Source of the DNA: Candidatus Krumholzibacteriota bacterium
Lineage (GTDB): Bacteria; Krumholzibacteriota; Krumholzibacteriia; JAJRXK01
DNA length: 64,000 nucleotides
Direction of reading: 5' to 3'
Assembly: GCA_029262065.1 (NCBI GenBank)
Contig: JAJDAC010000020.1
Location: 1 to 64,000, forward strand
Shown here piece after piece: positions 56,241-62,746 of this stretch. The notes beneath the pieces are model-generated. The model saw only the letters and a list, made by a program, of their open reading frames with translations, ran no database searches and was not told the DNA's origin. A program made the position numbers and the translations under genes. Within the stretch, counting starts at the first letter, position 1. Each line of letters starts with the position of its first letter.

Positions 56241-56804
56241 ATGTCCAGGTCTGCCACCCAACGTACCGAGGCCCCGGAGAGCGATCCCAGAGCGCTGCTC
56301 GAGCTCGTCTATCCATCGCTTCGTCGACTCGCAAACTCCCGAATGCGCCACGAAGCCCCTGGGCAGACAATCCAGGCCACCGCTCTGGTCCACGAAGTCT
56401 ATCTGCGGCTCGTGTCATCCGGTCCGCACGTGTGGGATGGACCGGGCCACTTCTACGGCGCCGCGGCCGAAGCCATGCGGCGGATCCTGATCGAGCGCGC
56501 AAGGCACAAGTCCCGGCGGCGGCGTGGTGGGGACTGGGCGCGGGTGAAGATGGCCGCGATCGATCGCGAGGCGGCATTCGACCCGGCCAGACTACTTGTC
56601 CTGGACACGGCGCTTAGCCAGCTCGAGGCGCACAACCCAAGACAGGCTTCCATCGTGAAGCTTCGTTTCTTCGTTGGTCTCACCGCCGACGAGATTGCCA
56701 CGCTCCTGAATGTTTCCACGTCGACGGTGAATCACGAGTGGGCCTTCGCTCGGGCCTGGCTACGTCAGCGCGTCAGTCGCTCGACGCAATGGCGCGACCT
56801 CTAG
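56241..56804 (+). CDS. ECF-type sigma factor (kinase-associated group)
   Basis: A 187-residue sigma factor of the group often found next to Ser/Thr kinases in Planctomycetes and Acidobacteria. Region 2 contains LVYPSLRRLANSRMRHEAPG, ATALVHEVYLRLV and HFYGAAAEAMRRILIERARH; region 4 contains RQASIVKLRFFVGLTADEIA and VSTSTVNHEWAFARAWLR. There is no anti-sigma gene; 15 bp later a kinase-like gene begins, as usual for this group, but it is truncated. Confidence 0.85.
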   Translation: MSRSATQRTEAPESDPRALLELVYPSLRRLANSRMRHEAPGQTIQATALVHEVYLRLVSSGPHVWDGPGHFYGAAAEAMRRILIERARHKSRRRRGGDWARVKMAAIDREAAFDPARLLVLDTALSQLEAHNPRQASIVKLRFFVGLTADEIATLLNVSTSTVNHEWAFARAWLRQRVSRSTQWRDL

Positions 56805-56819
56805 AACGGCAGAGGTATC

Positions 56820-57440
56820 ATGGCTCCTTTGTCCGAAAGCCGAGCTCGCCAACTTGCCGAGGCCGCCTTGCTTCGCAGCGAAACGGAACGCGACCGGTTC
56901 CTGTTCGAGTCGGCCGGTGAGGACTGGGCACTGTATGTGCGAGCGAGGGCATTGGCCGAGGTCCGTGATGCCACGCGGCCCTCGAACCAGCCCGAGCCCA
57001 GGAGTTCGCCCAAGTTGGCGCGCTTCGGCCATAGCAGTTTTCGACTTCAGGAACTGTGCGAACGGGTTTTCCATATCGCCGTGTATGACGCGATCCAGGT
57101 GGAACCCGTCCATCGACGCGTCACGCTGAAGATCCTGGAATCGGGCAGAGAAGACGAAGTTCAGCGTTTCCAGGTCGAACAGCAGGCCCTGGCGTCGGTC
57201 AATCATCGCAATATCGCGCGAGTGCTCGAGGTTGGCCATTGGCGAGACAAGCGGGCATTCCTTGCGCTGGAGTTCGTCGACGGCCCTTCGCTGGAAGAAT
57301 ATTGCGAGCGTGTCGCCCGGGGAAGTGACTTCCGTCACTCGGTGGAGTCTTCGCGGGTCTCCTGGCGAAGTCACCTGAGCCCGGTGAGTCGCACGCGCCT
57401 GGGACTACGACCTTCGCTTTCTCTTGCGCGAACGCTCTAG
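56820..57440 (+). pseudogene. Truncated Ser/Thr kinase: degenerate N-lobe only
   Basis: A 206-codon frame behind the ECF sigma gene. After a 70-residue lead, a kinase N-lobe is recognisable: HRRVTLKILESGREDEVQRF keeps the beta-3 Lys, then VNHRNIARVLEVG and FLALEFVDGPSLEEYC. The glycine loop is lost (LCERVFHIAVYDA in place of LGxGxFGxVYxA) and sequence after residue 165 is not kinase-like, so HRD, DFG and the whole C-lobe are missing. It could survive as a sigma-partner pseudokinase, but decay is more likely. Confidence 0.7.
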
Positions 57441-57457: not shown

Positions 57458-59413
57458 CTAGTTGTTCGGTTGGGGGTTCGTCCTCCTTACGAAGCGTCGA
57501 CGCACGTTTTCGCGCTCAACGCCGGTTGCGATGATTTCGCCATCCATCGTCTGGGTGGGGTCCCCGTCCGTGTCGGACGAGCCGAACCGCGCCCGTCGAT
57601 CCGCTTCGACCGCGCGATAGTGGGGTGTCAGTTCGCCATTGCTCTCGATCGTCTCGTTCAGCAACCGCAACGCGCGGGGAAAGCCTTGGCCGCCTACCTT
57701 CAGGAAAGCGCGAAACTGCGGTTCGCGCAGCAGGGCCTTTGACCGCCGTAGCGTTTCCTCGTTGGTGGGTTGTTTCACAATGACTACGTGGGTAGCGGCC
57801 AACGTAAAGACGGAGCCCGCCCGAACCTGCATGGCCAGGTCTACGATGTAGCGTCCCGCGACGGGGAACAGTACGCCGTCACGGCCATCGAAAAGCACCA
57901 CCGATCCCTTGCGTTGCTCGCCGTTGGGCAGCCGCTGGGTCGGCAGGCCTTCTCGGCAGCGATTCGCGGGACCAAAGCTACGGGCGATCCCGTCGGGTCC
58001 GATCACACGGCCTCTGATCGGCAACTCGTACTCGTCTTCGCCCGGCGGCGCCTCAATGTCTCGCCCGCTTTCGTTGTTGAGGGTCACCTCCAACCGTACC
58101 GGCGCTCCCAGCGGAAAGCCCGGCAGTTCCTGGACGTTTCGCACCGCTATGGTCAGGCCCTCCAGGCCTCCGCCGTCGGCCAGGTCGAAGAGCGACGCGC
58201 CACTCCACGGAATCCCGCCCGGACGAACCAGCGGGTCCGGCCAATGACGGAGCCGCCACGCGTCGTCCTCGTGAAAGCCCCAGCTCACGCCGTCCCAGCC
58301 GCCGTCGGCCAAGATGTCACCCGTGGTATTCATGAAGCCGTTGTCTTCGAAATTGTGGTCGAGGCCCATGGTGTGGCCCAGCTCGTGGATGGCCACGCGA
58401 AAGTAAGCTTCATCCCGCTTGGCCTGCGAGAGTTCACCGAGTTCGGTGTCCGCGGCGCCCGTGAAAGCGTTGCTCTCGAGCGCGGCTCCTTCGCGCGGTA
58501 CGGCGTTGGGGTCGCTGGCGTAGTCGAACATGATGCCGCGATCGACTCCGAATATCTCGGGGACGATCAGCAGGTTGTACGTCCAGGTGCGATCGACATC
58601 CCACTCCGACCGCCAGCCCATCATGGTTCGGTGGAGTTCATCCAGGTCCCAATCGCCGCTTTCGGGTGTGGCTACGGAAATCTCGTGGTCACTGGTTTCC
58701 ACTTGCCAATCCACCGACTCGAACACCTTGGTTATGTCCAGTGGTGCTTCGCCCACCGTCGGCGATGTCATCGCCGGCACTCCGGGCGCACGCTGAATAT
58801 CGATGTTAGCGCGGCGCAGGTAGGAACTGACCCAGTGGAGATGAATGTCGGCGAACGCGAGTCCCTTGCCGTCGTAGAGAACGCCCCCGTAGCTCACGGC
58901 TCCGTCGGGGGCGTCGCTGGGAACCGGGGCTGGCTCAAGGTCGGCCCAGTATGGACCAAGAGAGTCTTCATCGTACCACAGCGTCTGCTCGGTGATTCGC
59001 AACAGATCGAACCCCAGTCGCACGAAGTCCTCTTCCTTGAGGCGGTCGACCAGCTGCGTTACCGACACGTAGTACGCGTACTGCATGCGTGTACGGATGG
59101 GAATCTGAAGCATGGAGGGCCACTCCCCGTATTGCTCGGGAAGCAGGCCCAGTTCTTCGGTCTTGGCATCCAGGTGTAGGTACGTGTCGCCGCTGGCCAC
59201 GAAGCCATCGTCTGCGTGTTCGATCCGAAGCGATCCGCCCAGACTCCATTCGTAGGAATCGGGCGGATCGTACGGAACGATGGACAGTTCGTAACACCCC
59301 TTGGGCAGGACGACTGTTTCGTCCTGTGCGAAAGACTGGCGCGGCGGAATGTGCGCTGCTCCACCGTAGTTCGTACCAACCCGTGTCGGCGGAATCGGTA
59401 TGTCGGTCGCCAT
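57458..59413 (-). CDS. Metzincin-type zinc metalloprotease without signal peptide
   Basis: A 651-residue protein starting at an ATG that overlaps the previous stop (TGATG). HELGHTMGLDH at 343-353 gives the three zinc His and catalytic Glu of metzincins, followed by FMNTTGD where the Met-turn is expected. N-terminal residues (MATDIPIPPTRVGTNYGGAA) have no signal or membrane segment, unusual for this class. The C-terminal 250 residues hold Ig-like strands and a Lys/Arg-rich end. It is third in an operon with a kinase and a small helical protein, so export by another route or intracellular action must be considered. Confidence 0.8.
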   Translation of the reverse strand: MATDIPIPPTRVGTNYGGAAHIPPRQSFAQDETVVLPKGCYELSIVPYDPPDSYEWSLGGSLRIEHADDGFVASGDTYLHLDAKTEELGLLPEQYGEWPSMLQIPIRTRMQYAYYVSVTQLVDRLKEEDFVRLGFDLLRITEQTLWYDEDSLGPYWADLEPAPVPSDAPDGAVSYGGVLYDGKGLAFADIHLHWVSSYLRRANIDIQRAPGVPAMTSPTVGEAPLDITKVFESVDWQVETSDHEISVATPESGDWDLDELHRTMMGWRSEWDVDRTWTYNLLIVPEIFGVDRGIMFDYASDPNAVPREGAALESNAFTGAADTELGELSQAKRDEAYFRVAIHELGHTMGLDHNFEDNGFMNTTGDILADGGWDGVSWGFHEDDAWRLRHWPDPLVRPGGIPWSGASLFDLADGGGLEGLTIAVRNVQELPGFPLGAPVRLEVTLNNESGRDIEAPPGEDEYELPIRGRVIGPDGIARSFGPANRCREGLPTQRLPNGEQRKGSVVLFDGRDGVLFPVAGRYIVDLAMQVRAGSVFTLAATHVVIVKQPTNEETLRRSKALLREPQFRAFLKVGGQGFPRALRLLNETIESNGELTPHYRAVEADRRARFGSSDTDGDPTQTMDGEIIATGVERENVRRRFVRRTNPQPNN

Positions 59414-59835
59414 CAGTTGCCGCCCGCGCCGCCCGACGCCTGATCCGATTTCCATTCCAGCTTGCGCTGAGGGAAGATCTGGAAATCGAGGAAGTCGTTC
59501 TTGCCTTTCAGGTCTTCCAAGCTGGCGTTCAGCCTGACGATGACGTGCTCGCTCAGGAGCTTCAGGGCGCCCAGGTACGCTACCGTATTGCCCACGGGTG
59601 CATCGCAGGGTCCAGGTGGAAAACACGGTTTGCTGCCATCACCGGGGCCGTCCAGGTTGGTGGCCTGTTTTTCCATATCAGTATAGAACTGAGCGACGAC
59701 ATCGACATCGGCCAGCCGTTTCGCCGGGTCGTCCGGCAGTGCCTGGGCGAAGCCTTCGACCATGTCACGGGTGAACGCAACGGCGTCTTGCAGAAAGCGG
59801 AGATCGTTCAGTAGTTGCTCAACGTTCCTGGCCAT
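59413..59835 (-). CDS. Small helical protein between kinase and metalloprotease
   Basis: A 140-residue soluble protein with no signal peptide. Helices (VEQLLNDLRFLQDAVAFTRD, LADVDVVAQFYTDMEKQATN, LGALKLLSEHVIVRLNASLE) flank a loop with CFPPGPC. The tail is polar and Gly-rich (SDQASGGAGGN). No family is recognised. It is translationally coupled to the protease gene (TGATG) and 50 bp after the kinase, so it may be a chaperone, inhibitor or adaptor of the protease. Confidence 0.7.
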   Translation of the reverse strand: MARNVEQLLNDLRFLQDAVAFTRDMVEGFAQALPDDPAKRLADVDVVAQFYTDMEKQATNLDGPGDGSKPCFPPGPCDAPVGNTVAYLGALKLLSEHVIVRLNASLEDLKGKNDFLDFQIFPQRKLEWKSDQASGGAGGN

Positions 59836-59885
59836 GATTGCTCCTTGCAGTCGACGGGCGCCAATCAGCTACCATTTCAATCTTC

Positions 59886-62489
59886 CTACCGATCGAGTTG
59901 GGCTCTCAGCTCCGCCAGTTCTTGGTTTGGAATGAAATCGGCATCCGCCGCCGCCCAGACGGAAGCCAGTTGATCCAGGTGTGTACGAGCGGCCTGGATG
60001 TCTCCGCGGGCCAGGTCTATGCGACCCAGCTCGAGGAGGGGTTCGTAGTAGTTGTGGTTGAGGGATAGCGCCTGGTCGAACGCCTGCAGGGCCGAAGCCG
60101 TATCGGCCGCGGCCAGGTATGCCCGGCCCAGCGGCGTGCGCATGGCGGCCGCGTCCAACCGACCCGAGGCGCGCCGGGCCAGCTCGTGCAGTCGGACCGA
60201 CTCCTTGTTATCTCCGGCGGCCAGTGCGATCCGGCCCATCAGATCCAGATAGAAGCGGCGTTCGGTGTAAGCCTCGTTGGTCGTGGCGCCCTCGGGATCG
60301 TCGCCGATCGATGTGGCGATGGCTTGGGCGTGCGTTCGCGCATCGTCCAGGTTGCCAGTGGCCACGCTGATCTTGCCCGCGATCCAACGACTGTAGTAGT
60401 TGTCCTGGATGCTCAGCGCCTCCAGGATCCGCATCTGGCCGGTCTGCAGCCGTTGGCGTTCGAGGTCGAGATCGGCCAGCATCATCAAAGGTGCCGCGCG
60501 CATGTAGCGTCCCTCGCGAACGTCCATCCAGCTCAGCAAGGCCTGCTCGGCTTCGGTCGCGCGGCCCAACATGCGTAGCACGGTGGCCCGGTGTCCCAGG
60601 TCGGCACCCGGCCTCAATCCGGCCAGGGTGTCGCAATAGGCCAGGGCCCGACTGAATTCACCGGTCGTCCAGCTGAACTGGATCAGGGCCACGAGTGCGG
60701 ATACGTCGCCCGGCGCATCCTGCCGCCAGTCCAGCAGCAGGCGGTGGGCGTCGTTGGTGCGTCCGGCCTCTATGTGGGCCATGGACAAATGGCTCTGGAA
60801 CGAATAGTCGAATGGTGACTGACGCCGCGCCACCTCGAACTCGCCGATTGCATCGAGCCATTTGCGTTGTTGCAGGAGCAGGTTCCCAAGCCACTTGCGT
60901 ACCTGGGTCTGGTCGGTGTGGGTGTCCAGGATTTCGCTGTAGCGGGAAATTGCCTCGGCGTAGTCGTCTTTGTGATCGGCGTACGCCGCCTCGATGATCG
61001 CACCCAGGGGAGCCGGTTTTCCCCGTCGGAACTGCATGGCTTGCGTGATCGCCTCCTTGCGCTCGTCGCGGTCGGGCAACGTGCGCCATAGGTACAACCA
61101 GGCGCGGGCGTACTCCGGGTCAGCGTCCACGGCCGCGCGAAAGCTCGCGCTGGCTTTTGGTTCATCGGCCCGCTGCAGGTGTTGCATACCCTCTTCGAAG
61201 TGGGTCAAGGCCAGTACGTCCGACGTATGCCGCGACAGCTGCGGCGGTGGGTTCTGCTTCACGCCGAGCGCCGAGGCAATAGCGGTACCCAGGGTGTCGA
61301 TCGAGGCCAACAGGTCGCGCTCGATGTGGTCGACGTTGGTGGACCACGTTGCCAGTAGCTCTTGTTTGCGGAAGTCTTCCAGTTCGCAGTTGATCTTGAG
61401 GTTGTTGCCCGTTTGCAGATAGTTGCCCGACACCAGGAAGTCCACCTCGACCCTTTGCGCCAGCTGGAACAGTCGTTGATTGAGAACGCCGGCCTCGACC
61501 GGGGCGCGGTCGACCAGGGCCGAGCTGATTGCGTTGCGGCTGACCAGACGGAATCCCTCGATCTGACCCAACGCGAGCATGAGGTTGTCCATGATCGACG
61601 TCGAGAGCCACGAGATGTTCCCCTCGTCTCCGACGTTCTCGAACGGCGCGACCAGAATTCGATGCACGTCGTTAGTGGGGCGCGGATCTACCAGGTTCTT
61701 GATCTGGGGCCAAAGCGCCAGCCCCGCGACTACTACAACCAGGGCGAGCATTCGGGCCGGCAATAGGGGGCGGCGTTCGAGTTCCCGTTTGAATTCCGAG
61801 GCCGAGGGTCGGGTGTCGGGGGATGGATCGGTAGCTTTGGCAATGAGTTCGCGCATGCGCTTGGGCGTGGGTCCCGATTCGAGCAGCATTTGCTGCAAGA
61901 TGAGTCCCAGCGAGTAGACGTCGGTCTTGCCGTCCACCTCCTTGCCTTGTCGCTGTTCGGGCGACATATAGGCTGGCGTGCCCACGATGCCACCCTGGTT
62001 TCGCAGCGTGGTTTTCTCGGCCGTGTGCGCCAACCCGAAGTCCACGATCTTGCACTGACCAGATTCGTCGACCAGAACGTTCTCGGGTTTGAGATCGCGG
62101 TGCACCACGCCCACGCGGTGGGCTTCGGCCAGCCCGTCGGCGATCTCGCCGGCGATACGCGTCGCTTCGGAGCGGGAGATGCTGCCTTGCTTGATGCGAT
62201 GCTTCAGCGTGCTGCCATTGATCCATTGCATGACCAGGTGCGCATCGTCGCCCACCTGCACTACGTCGTAGAGCGTTACCACGTTGGCATGGTCGATCTT
62301 GGCGATGGCCTGGGCTTCGCGCAGAAACCGCACACGGGCGTCGCGCTCGGCACTGGCCACCGCGCGCAGTGACTTGATTGCGACTGTACGGTCAGCGAAG
62401 GAGTCGTAGGCCCGGTACACACGGCCAAACGAACCCGTGGCCACCAGCTCGAGTAGTTCGTAGTGGGATATTTTCCGCTTCAAACCCAT
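59886..62489 (-). CDS. Ser/Thr kinase with TolB-N-like and TPR domains
   Basis: An 867-residue membrane kinase with GGAGG 9 nt before the ATG. Kinase motifs: ATGSFGRVY (first Gly of the loop is Ala), Lys in VAIKSL, VHRDLKPEN, VDFGLAH and AYMSPEQRQG. The activation segment has several Thr. The C-lobe is short, followed by a membrane helix (MLALVVVVAGLALWP) near 250. Then come a TolB-N-like domain (ILVAPFENVGDEGNISWLST, FLVSGNYLQTGNNLKINCEL) and some ten TPR units. It leads the operon with the helical protein and the metalloprotease and may control their activity by phosphorylation. Confidence 0.9.
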   Translation of the reverse strand: MGLKRKISHYELLELVATGSFGRVYRAYDSFADRTVAIKSLRAVASAERDARVRFLREAQAIAKIDHANVVTLYDVVQVGDDAHLVMQWINGSTLKHRIKQGSISRSEATRIAGEIADGLAEAHRVGVVHRDLKPENVLVDESGQCKIVDFGLAHTAEKTTLRNQGGIVGTPAYMSPEQRQGKEVDGKTDVYSLGLILQQMLLESGPTPKRMRELIAKATDPSPDTRPSASEFKRELERRPLLPARMLALVVVVAGLALWPQIKNLVDPRPTNDVHRILVAPFENVGDEGNISWLSTSIMDNLMLALGQIEGFRLVSRNAISSALVDRAPVEAGVLNQRLFQLAQRVEVDFLVSGNYLQTGNNLKINCELEDFRKQELLATWSTNVDHIERDLLASIDTLGTAIASALGVKQNPPPQLSRHTSDVLALTHFEEGMQHLQRADEPKASASFRAAVDADPEYARAWLYLWRTLPDRDERKEAITQAMQFRRGKPAPLGAIIEAAYADHKDDYAEAISRYSEILDTHTDQTQVRKWLGNLLLQQRKWLDAIGEFEVARRQSPFDYSFQSHLSMAHIEAGRTNDAHRLLLDWRQDAPGDVSALVALIQFSWTTGEFSRALAYCDTLAGLRPGADLGHRATVLRMLGRATEAEQALLSWMDVREGRYMRAAPLMMLADLDLERQRLQTGQMRILEALSIQDNYYSRWIAGKISVATGNLDDARTHAQAIATSIGDDPEGATTNEAYTERRFYLDLMGRIALAAGDNKESVRLHELARRASGRLDAAAMRTPLGRAYLAAADTASALQAFDQALSLNHNYYEPLLELGRIDLARGDIQAARTHLDQLASVWAAADADFIPNQELAELRAQLDR

Positions 62490-62690: not shown

Positions 62691-62721
62691 AAAAGCCCTC
62701 ACCGCAGAGCACGGCGAGGGC
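62691..62721 (-). terminator. Rho-independent terminator of the gene at 62747
   Basis: On the minus strand GCCCTC-G-CCG and CGG-T-GAGGGC pair around a 7-nt loop, and TTTTCTCG follows directly. It lies 26 bp past the stop of the exported-protein gene. Confidence 0.8.
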
Positions 62722-62746
62722 CATCATATTTAGCTACTGTCGAAGC

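Follow-up and report, generated by a model that had tools for sequence, protein, structure and literature searches.

A Signal-less Metzincin and a Small Helical Protein Linked by Translational Coupling in a Three-Gene Operon of a Candidatus Krumholzibacteriota Bacterium

A three-gene operon of a Candidatus Krumholzibacteriota bacterium encodes, head to tail on the minus strand, a membrane Ser/Thr protein kinase, a small helical protein, and a metzincin that lacks a secretion signal and belongs to a genuine, scattered, and apparently undescribed family of such proteins. Our preferred reading, held tentatively (probability about 0.4), is that the metzincin is a cytoplasmic, putatively active protease coupled to a lineage-specific small helical binding partner, and that the kinase is incidental. 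The trio is not to be called a system, because two of its three genes are lineage-specific. Most known metzincins are secreted proteins, and zymogen forms are frequent among them; with a signal-less family that reaches from haloarchaea to Pseudomonas, one must ask how the cytoplasm is protected from such an endopeptidase, or how the enzyme leaves it. Throughout, the window is the whole stretch of 64,000 nucleotides that was analyzed, which comes from a genome of 5.77 Mb (G000).

Operon Organization

The kinase gene (P0003, 59886–62489, minus strand; 867 amino acids) is followed by the gene for the helical protein (P0002, 59413–59835, minus strand; 140 amino acids) and that for the metzincin (P0001, 57458–59413, minus strand; 651 amino acids). 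Fifty base pairs separate the kinase stop from P0002, whose ATG is preceded by the Shine-Dalgarno sequence AAGGAG, and the stop of P0002 overlaps the start of P0001 in a TGATG (59411–59415, minus strand), the two genes sharing position 59413. Both the operon and this coupling had been proposed in a first-pass annotation of the window, and both are confirmed. Codon-position GC is coding-like in the metzincin (0.67/0.46/0.75), the helical protein (0.67/0.39/0.72), and the kinase (0.68/0.44/0.78). The in-frame stretch upstream of the metzincin ATG has values of 0.77/0.62/0.42, which are not coding-like, and the 651-residue start is therefore probably correct. A terminator-like hairpin of 13 pairs with a T tail (62694–62722, minus strand) ends the gene upstream of the kinase and so bounds the operon. 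The intergenic gaps within the operon showed no minus-strand terminator, a single weak hairpin lying within the kinase coding sequence; the three genes thus very probably form one transcription unit. Border repeats of at least 10 bp were not found around it.

Beyond the 3' end of the metzincin gene, on the plus strand (56241–57440), an ECF sigma factor gene (PF07638, 7.9e-52) precedes a kinase fragment that covers Pkinase positions 23–91 only; its end coincides with that of the metzincin gene. The fragment is a remnant of the sigma–kinase pairs seen elsewhere in the genome, and the rearrangement that introduced the operon may have truncated it.

The Metzincin and Its Family

P0001 carries the zinc motif HELGHTMGLDH at residues 343–353, with M361 as the Met-turn. 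Across all six reading frames the window contains a single instance of the pattern HExxHxx[GN]xxH, where dinucleotide shuffles predict 0.017, so the extended motif is not a chance one. The three zinc-binding histidines and the catalytic glutamate are invariant in 13 aligned homologues, and M361 is invariant both there and in a 7-member distant alignment; judged by its sequence, P0001 is probably an active zinc endopeptidase. Its N-terminus has a hydrophobicity of 0.66, compared with 2.4–3.2 in secreted controls from the same window. The AlphaFold model, of moderate quality (pLDDT 64, with parts of the catalytic domain at low confidence), divides the protein into a beta domain (39–208), a catalytic domain (approximately 210–410), an Ig-like domain (418–547), and a helical tail (552–645). 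No MMP-type structure stood among the top Foldseek ranks for this model, in which parts of the catalytic domain are poorly resolved. For the Ig-like domain the nearest structure is that of BsuPI, the intracellular proteinase inhibitor of Bacillus subtilis (3isy; TM score 0.71 on the target).

Scanning genome contigs and viral contigs with the single metzincin sequence returned nothing; a single sequence is insufficient, and the family was recovered with a profile from an alignment that included plasmid relatives. By tblastn, a Caballeronia insecticola plasmid gave 29% identity across 91% of the length, and plasmid matches in Methylobacterium, Embleya, Halocatena, and Nonomuraea were weaker. 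The profile-guided scan yielded 12 loci, in a cyanobacterium, Nitrospira, Pseudomonas, Hymenobacter, a deltaproteobacterium, a verrucomicrobium, Caballeronia, and a calditrichian, and one further member lies on a prophage-bearing Pseudomonas contig. The members collected number 20 (the window protein and 19 relatives) and come from about ten phyla, with haloarchaea and actinobacteria among them. Every one of them keeps the zinc motif and the Met-turn. The absence of a secretion signal, which the first-pass annotation had remarked on in P0001, was borne out there and extends to 20 of 20 members by hydrophobicity and inspection, the signals of secreted controls from the window being clear.

The family tree has two groups, and the window protein forms a long, isolated branch in the one that holds the Pseudomonas-type members. 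A distant homologue exists within the window's own phylum (L048, 5859–10769, on contig C36 of genome G024), where one gene, for a 103-residue protein, separates it from a half-size ClpB-like AAA ATPase upstream. That homologue aside, the metzincin was found in 1 of 80 genomes of the phylum, which points to horizontal gain of the P0001 gene. No relatives were found in phage records, no curated Pfam or NCBIfam model properly describing the family was found, and the open-access literature yielded nothing on the family or on a kinase–metzincin operon.

Neighbors of the Family

In 12 of 14 close relatives the metzincin gene is immediately followed by a gene for a protein of 99–146 residues that has GxW at its start and a conserved Cys (loci include L021:12020–12319, L010:9971–10369, L015:5921–6355, L016:11943–12383, L020:6909–7307, L025:12096–12470, and L047:4047–4346). 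A small partner is, on this evidence, a habit of the family. Nothing convincing was returned for the GxW proteins by Pfam or NCBIfam or for their profile by the PDB, and the profile has no match in the window. Sec- or lipoprotein-like N-termini occur among them at five loci representing four lineages (Caballeronia, Elainella, Nitrospira, and the deltaproteobacterium); the Pseudomonas proteins are without signals. The GxW protein is a candidate inhibitor or immunity protein, a role that could be tested in the culturable Pseudomonas and Caballeronia.

Other peptidases recur beside the metzincin. In six loci the next gene encodes a signal-less M1-like gluzincin (among them L018:12587–14875, L021:12353–15121, and L020:7328–8059, the last copy cut or shortened), which in Pseudomonas carries a fused HAD domain, a type of domain that is typically cytosolic. 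Its identity was read from the sequence (GGMEYDGG ... HEAFHSWW ... DEAWT), Pfam and NCBIfam not calling it as a peptidase, and no such neighbor was found in the window's genome. Both Caballeronia loci have, in divergent orientation to the metzincin, a signal-less M14 carboxypeptidase with a VWA domain (L010:4077–6968 and L025:6183–9086; 80% identical).

The Helical Protein

P0002 has no signal peptide. Its single-sequence AlphaFold2 model, of low confidence (mean pLDDT 50), predicts helices at residues 5–32, 37–59, and 82–111, and its C-terminal tail is Gly-rich. It has no match in Pfam, NCBIfam, PADLOC, or PHROGs, and searches for homologues in 58 related genomes, plasmids, viral contigs, and 10 metzincin-carrier genomes gave only noise. 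An apparent likeness to designed "Bagel" proteins was dismissed as an artefact, the match being short and repeated with no single stretch passing. A helical gene like P0002 stands in an operon with the metzincin in 0 of 19 relatives. The earlier idea of a helical partner is therefore upheld as to its translational coupling to the protease and not as to an association in relatives, and P0002 could be functionally unrelated to the metzincin. For the trio as a whole the outcome is likewise divided: the homologues resemble P0001 in having no signal peptides, and none is associated with a helical gene of this kind.

The Kinase

The first-pass description of P0003 as a TPR-type membrane kinase agrees with the Pfam scan, which finds an N-terminal protein kinase domain (Pkinase, 1.8e-48), TPRs, and, at the Pfam cut-off, a FlgO-like region (272–387). 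The HRDLKPEN and DFG motifs are intact, and one transmembrane stretch lies at residues ~242–260. Given a cytoplasmic kinase domain, the TPR part would face outwards. A PADLOC assignment to the defence system PD-T4-6 was rejected, since the match spans the generic kinase domain only.

At a threshold of E ≤ 1e-60, P0003 has no match in seven related genomes. Its own genome holds 76 Ser/Thr kinase domains, many in proteins of 750–1,100 residues, and with so many, a kinase near the metzincin is weak evidence of a link. Among 20 kinase regions that we read, many have a close co-directional downstream gene, and these neighbors are diverse. At C15:34800–43800 (L035) of the same genome, a TPR kinase is followed by genes for an HlyD-type protein, a C39-peptidase ABC exporter, and a lantibiotic dehydratase, that is, a RiPP cluster behind a kinase. 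No Ser/Thr kinase stands in an operon with the metzincin in any of the 19 relatives, and the co-occurrence of all three genes, which the first-pass annotation had suggested looking for, was accordingly seen in none of them. The verrucomicrobial locus does have a kinase gene two genes downstream of the metzincin, and a hybrid histidine kinase follows at the calditrichian locus; both may be there by chance. We regard the P0003 kinase as co-transcribed, yet probably an incidental or only transcriptionally linked neighbor.

Contractile Injection Genes in Metzincin Carriers

The window's genome carries a T6SS(iii)-type cluster on a contig other than the window's (C45:46000–64736, L052), with ClpV, TssB, TssC (PF17541), TssD (PF17642), VgrG, a gp25-like protein, TssG, and a probable TssF. 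No PAAR, VgrG, Hcp, or other T6SS genes were recognized near the 20 loci or the window operon in a read-through of the ORF lists, with part of the ORFs scanned against families. The gp25 marker, which also marks phages, is present in 10 of 12 metzincin carriers against 20 of 80 genomes of the phylum, a comparison across phyla that is confounded by taxonomy; within the phylum, with only two carriers there, the association has p = 0.06. The two carriers without gp25 are both metagenome-assembled genomes (MAGs), and of the relatives in the same family as the window's genome, 0 of 3 have the marker.

A Proposed Cytoplasmic Protease with a Coupled Partner

We propose that the metzincin folds in the cytoplasm, where it is made, and would never enter Sec. 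P0002 would bind it 1:1, keeping it inactive or soluble until needed, a step that we infer from coupling and size only; where translation of a small protein is coupled to that of an endopeptidase, they often come into contact during synthesis. P0002 would then substitute here for the unrelated GxW protein that accompanies the family elsewhere, and the metzincin would act, as we favor, in the cytoplasm. Action in this compartment is supported by the 20 signal-less members in about ten phyla, as we know of no single non-Sec route common to all these phyla, and by the equally signal-less M1-like and M14 peptidases beside them (six and two loci). The ClpB-like AAA ATPase near the distant homologue and the likeness of the Ig-like domain to an intracellular inhibitor speak for it as well. 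Counting against it, the Sec- or lipoprotein-like GxW N-termini suggest that the family's protease meets the GxW protein outside the cytoplasm. The cytoplasmic reading is weakened further in that homologues of BsuPI are often exported (PMC3901451) and that the models are moderate for the protease and poor for the helical protein.

Its main rival, unlikely in our estimate and nevertheless a live one, is export by a contractile system: the metzincin would be loaded into a T6SS(iii) apparatus and act in the envelope of another bacterium, P0002 being a loading chaperone or immunity protein and the GxW protein the immunity protein in relatives. Such an injected effector would fit the T6SS(iii) cluster of the genome and the missing gp25 of its family relatives, the excess of gp25 among carriers, a scattered distribution that includes plasmids and one copy beside a prophage, and the targeting of the GxW proteins, which resembles that of the VgrG2b/Tpe immunity genes (PMC6899460). 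It fits less well with a cluster on a different contig and no recognized T6SS genes at any of the loci, with the unsignalled GxW proteins of Pseudomonas, or with the accompanying exopeptidases, which would be unusual for toxins; the gp25 excess itself is open to phages, taxonomy, the marginal p value, and the two MAG carriers that lack the marker. A broader version, in which contractile injection systems deliver phylum-crossing, Sec-independent metzincins into other cells and the small partner of each is exchangeable (in most lineages the exported GxW protein, here a cytosolic helical one), seems to us distinctly improbable. If true, it would define a new class of protease effector–immunity modules in which partner identity, gene side, and compartment have switched.

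Control by the kinase, one of the two functions that the first-pass annotation had put forward, is improbable and unsupported beyond the adjacency of the genes. P0003 would sense an envelope signal, and phosphorylation of P0002 or P0001 would free the activity of an intracellular protease. The co-directional genes, the 50-bp gap, the terminator-free gaps, and the intact kinase motifs would suit it; an arrangement kept in none of the relatives, a kinase with no close match in related genomes, and a genome rich in kinases with diverse downstream neighbors argue against it. We think it equally improbable that the genes have no functional link, a horizontally gained protease having landed behind two unrelated genes and working alone. 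The protease (the distant G024 homologue excepted) and P0002 are without relatives in 58–80 genomes of the class or phylum, the kinase is without a close match in seven, and a rearrangement is suggested by the truncated kinase gene at the 3' border; the TGATG overlap, the Shine-Dalgarno sequence of P0002, the codon-position GC matched in all three genes, and the lack of border repeats tell the other way. Least probable by far is that P0002 is a substrate, a fast-evolving precursor that the protease cleaves to a peptide. Pairs of a zincin and a small, fast-diverging precursor have been described (PMC7159879), and the Gly-rich tail of P0002 would suit the role, but P0002 has no FxSxx-type C-terminus, an export gene is absent nearby, and the prior is low.

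Comparison with Known Systems

P0001 shares HExxHxxGxxH and the Met-turn with the matrixins (M10A, PF00413), which it matches at 24.5 bits against a cut-off of 24 over ~33 profile positions (the zinc motif) only. The same profile matches 11 of 13 family members at E ≤ 0.01, the best E-value being that of the window protein. Unlike matrixins, P0001 has neither a signal nor a visible Cys-switch propeptide, and its beta, Ig-like, and helical domains are not matrixin-type. Archaemetzincins (M54) normally lack a signal peptide too, but the match of P0001 to their model (NF033823) covers the zinc motif only, at 16.8 bits against a cut-off of 145. The fold of the Ig-like domain resembles BsuPI/IPI (3isy), a lead only; P0001 has no sequence match to PF12690 (BsuPI) in the Pfam scan, and Ig folds are common.

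Serralysins (M10B) with their AprI/Inh inhibitors are alike in being metzincins without a Sec signal and, as in the relatives studied here, in having a small exported protein adjacent. They differ in that P0001 matches no RTX repeats in Pfam or NCBIfam and no T1SS genes were recognized nearby, and the GxW protein matches nothing in Pfam, including PF02974. The Listeria pair Mtz–Tim likewise combines a metzincin with a small neighbor gene and a mobile distribution, but the metzincin Mtz and the TIMP-like Tim both have signal peptides (PMC8235301), unlike the window pair.

The metallopeptidase toxins VgrG2b (C-terminal domain) and Tpe differ from the family in that the metzincins have no VgrG fusion and no T6SS genes recognized beside them, and the VgrG2b toxin is absent from the best 60 PDB matches of the metzincin profile. 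The toxin genes are followed by a small immunity gene, and its product is exported through Sec, lipidated, or membrane-bound according to lineage (PMC6899460); the relatives of P0001 share with VgrG2b and Tpe–Tpi a metallopeptidase followed by a small gene with lineage-variable envelope targeting.
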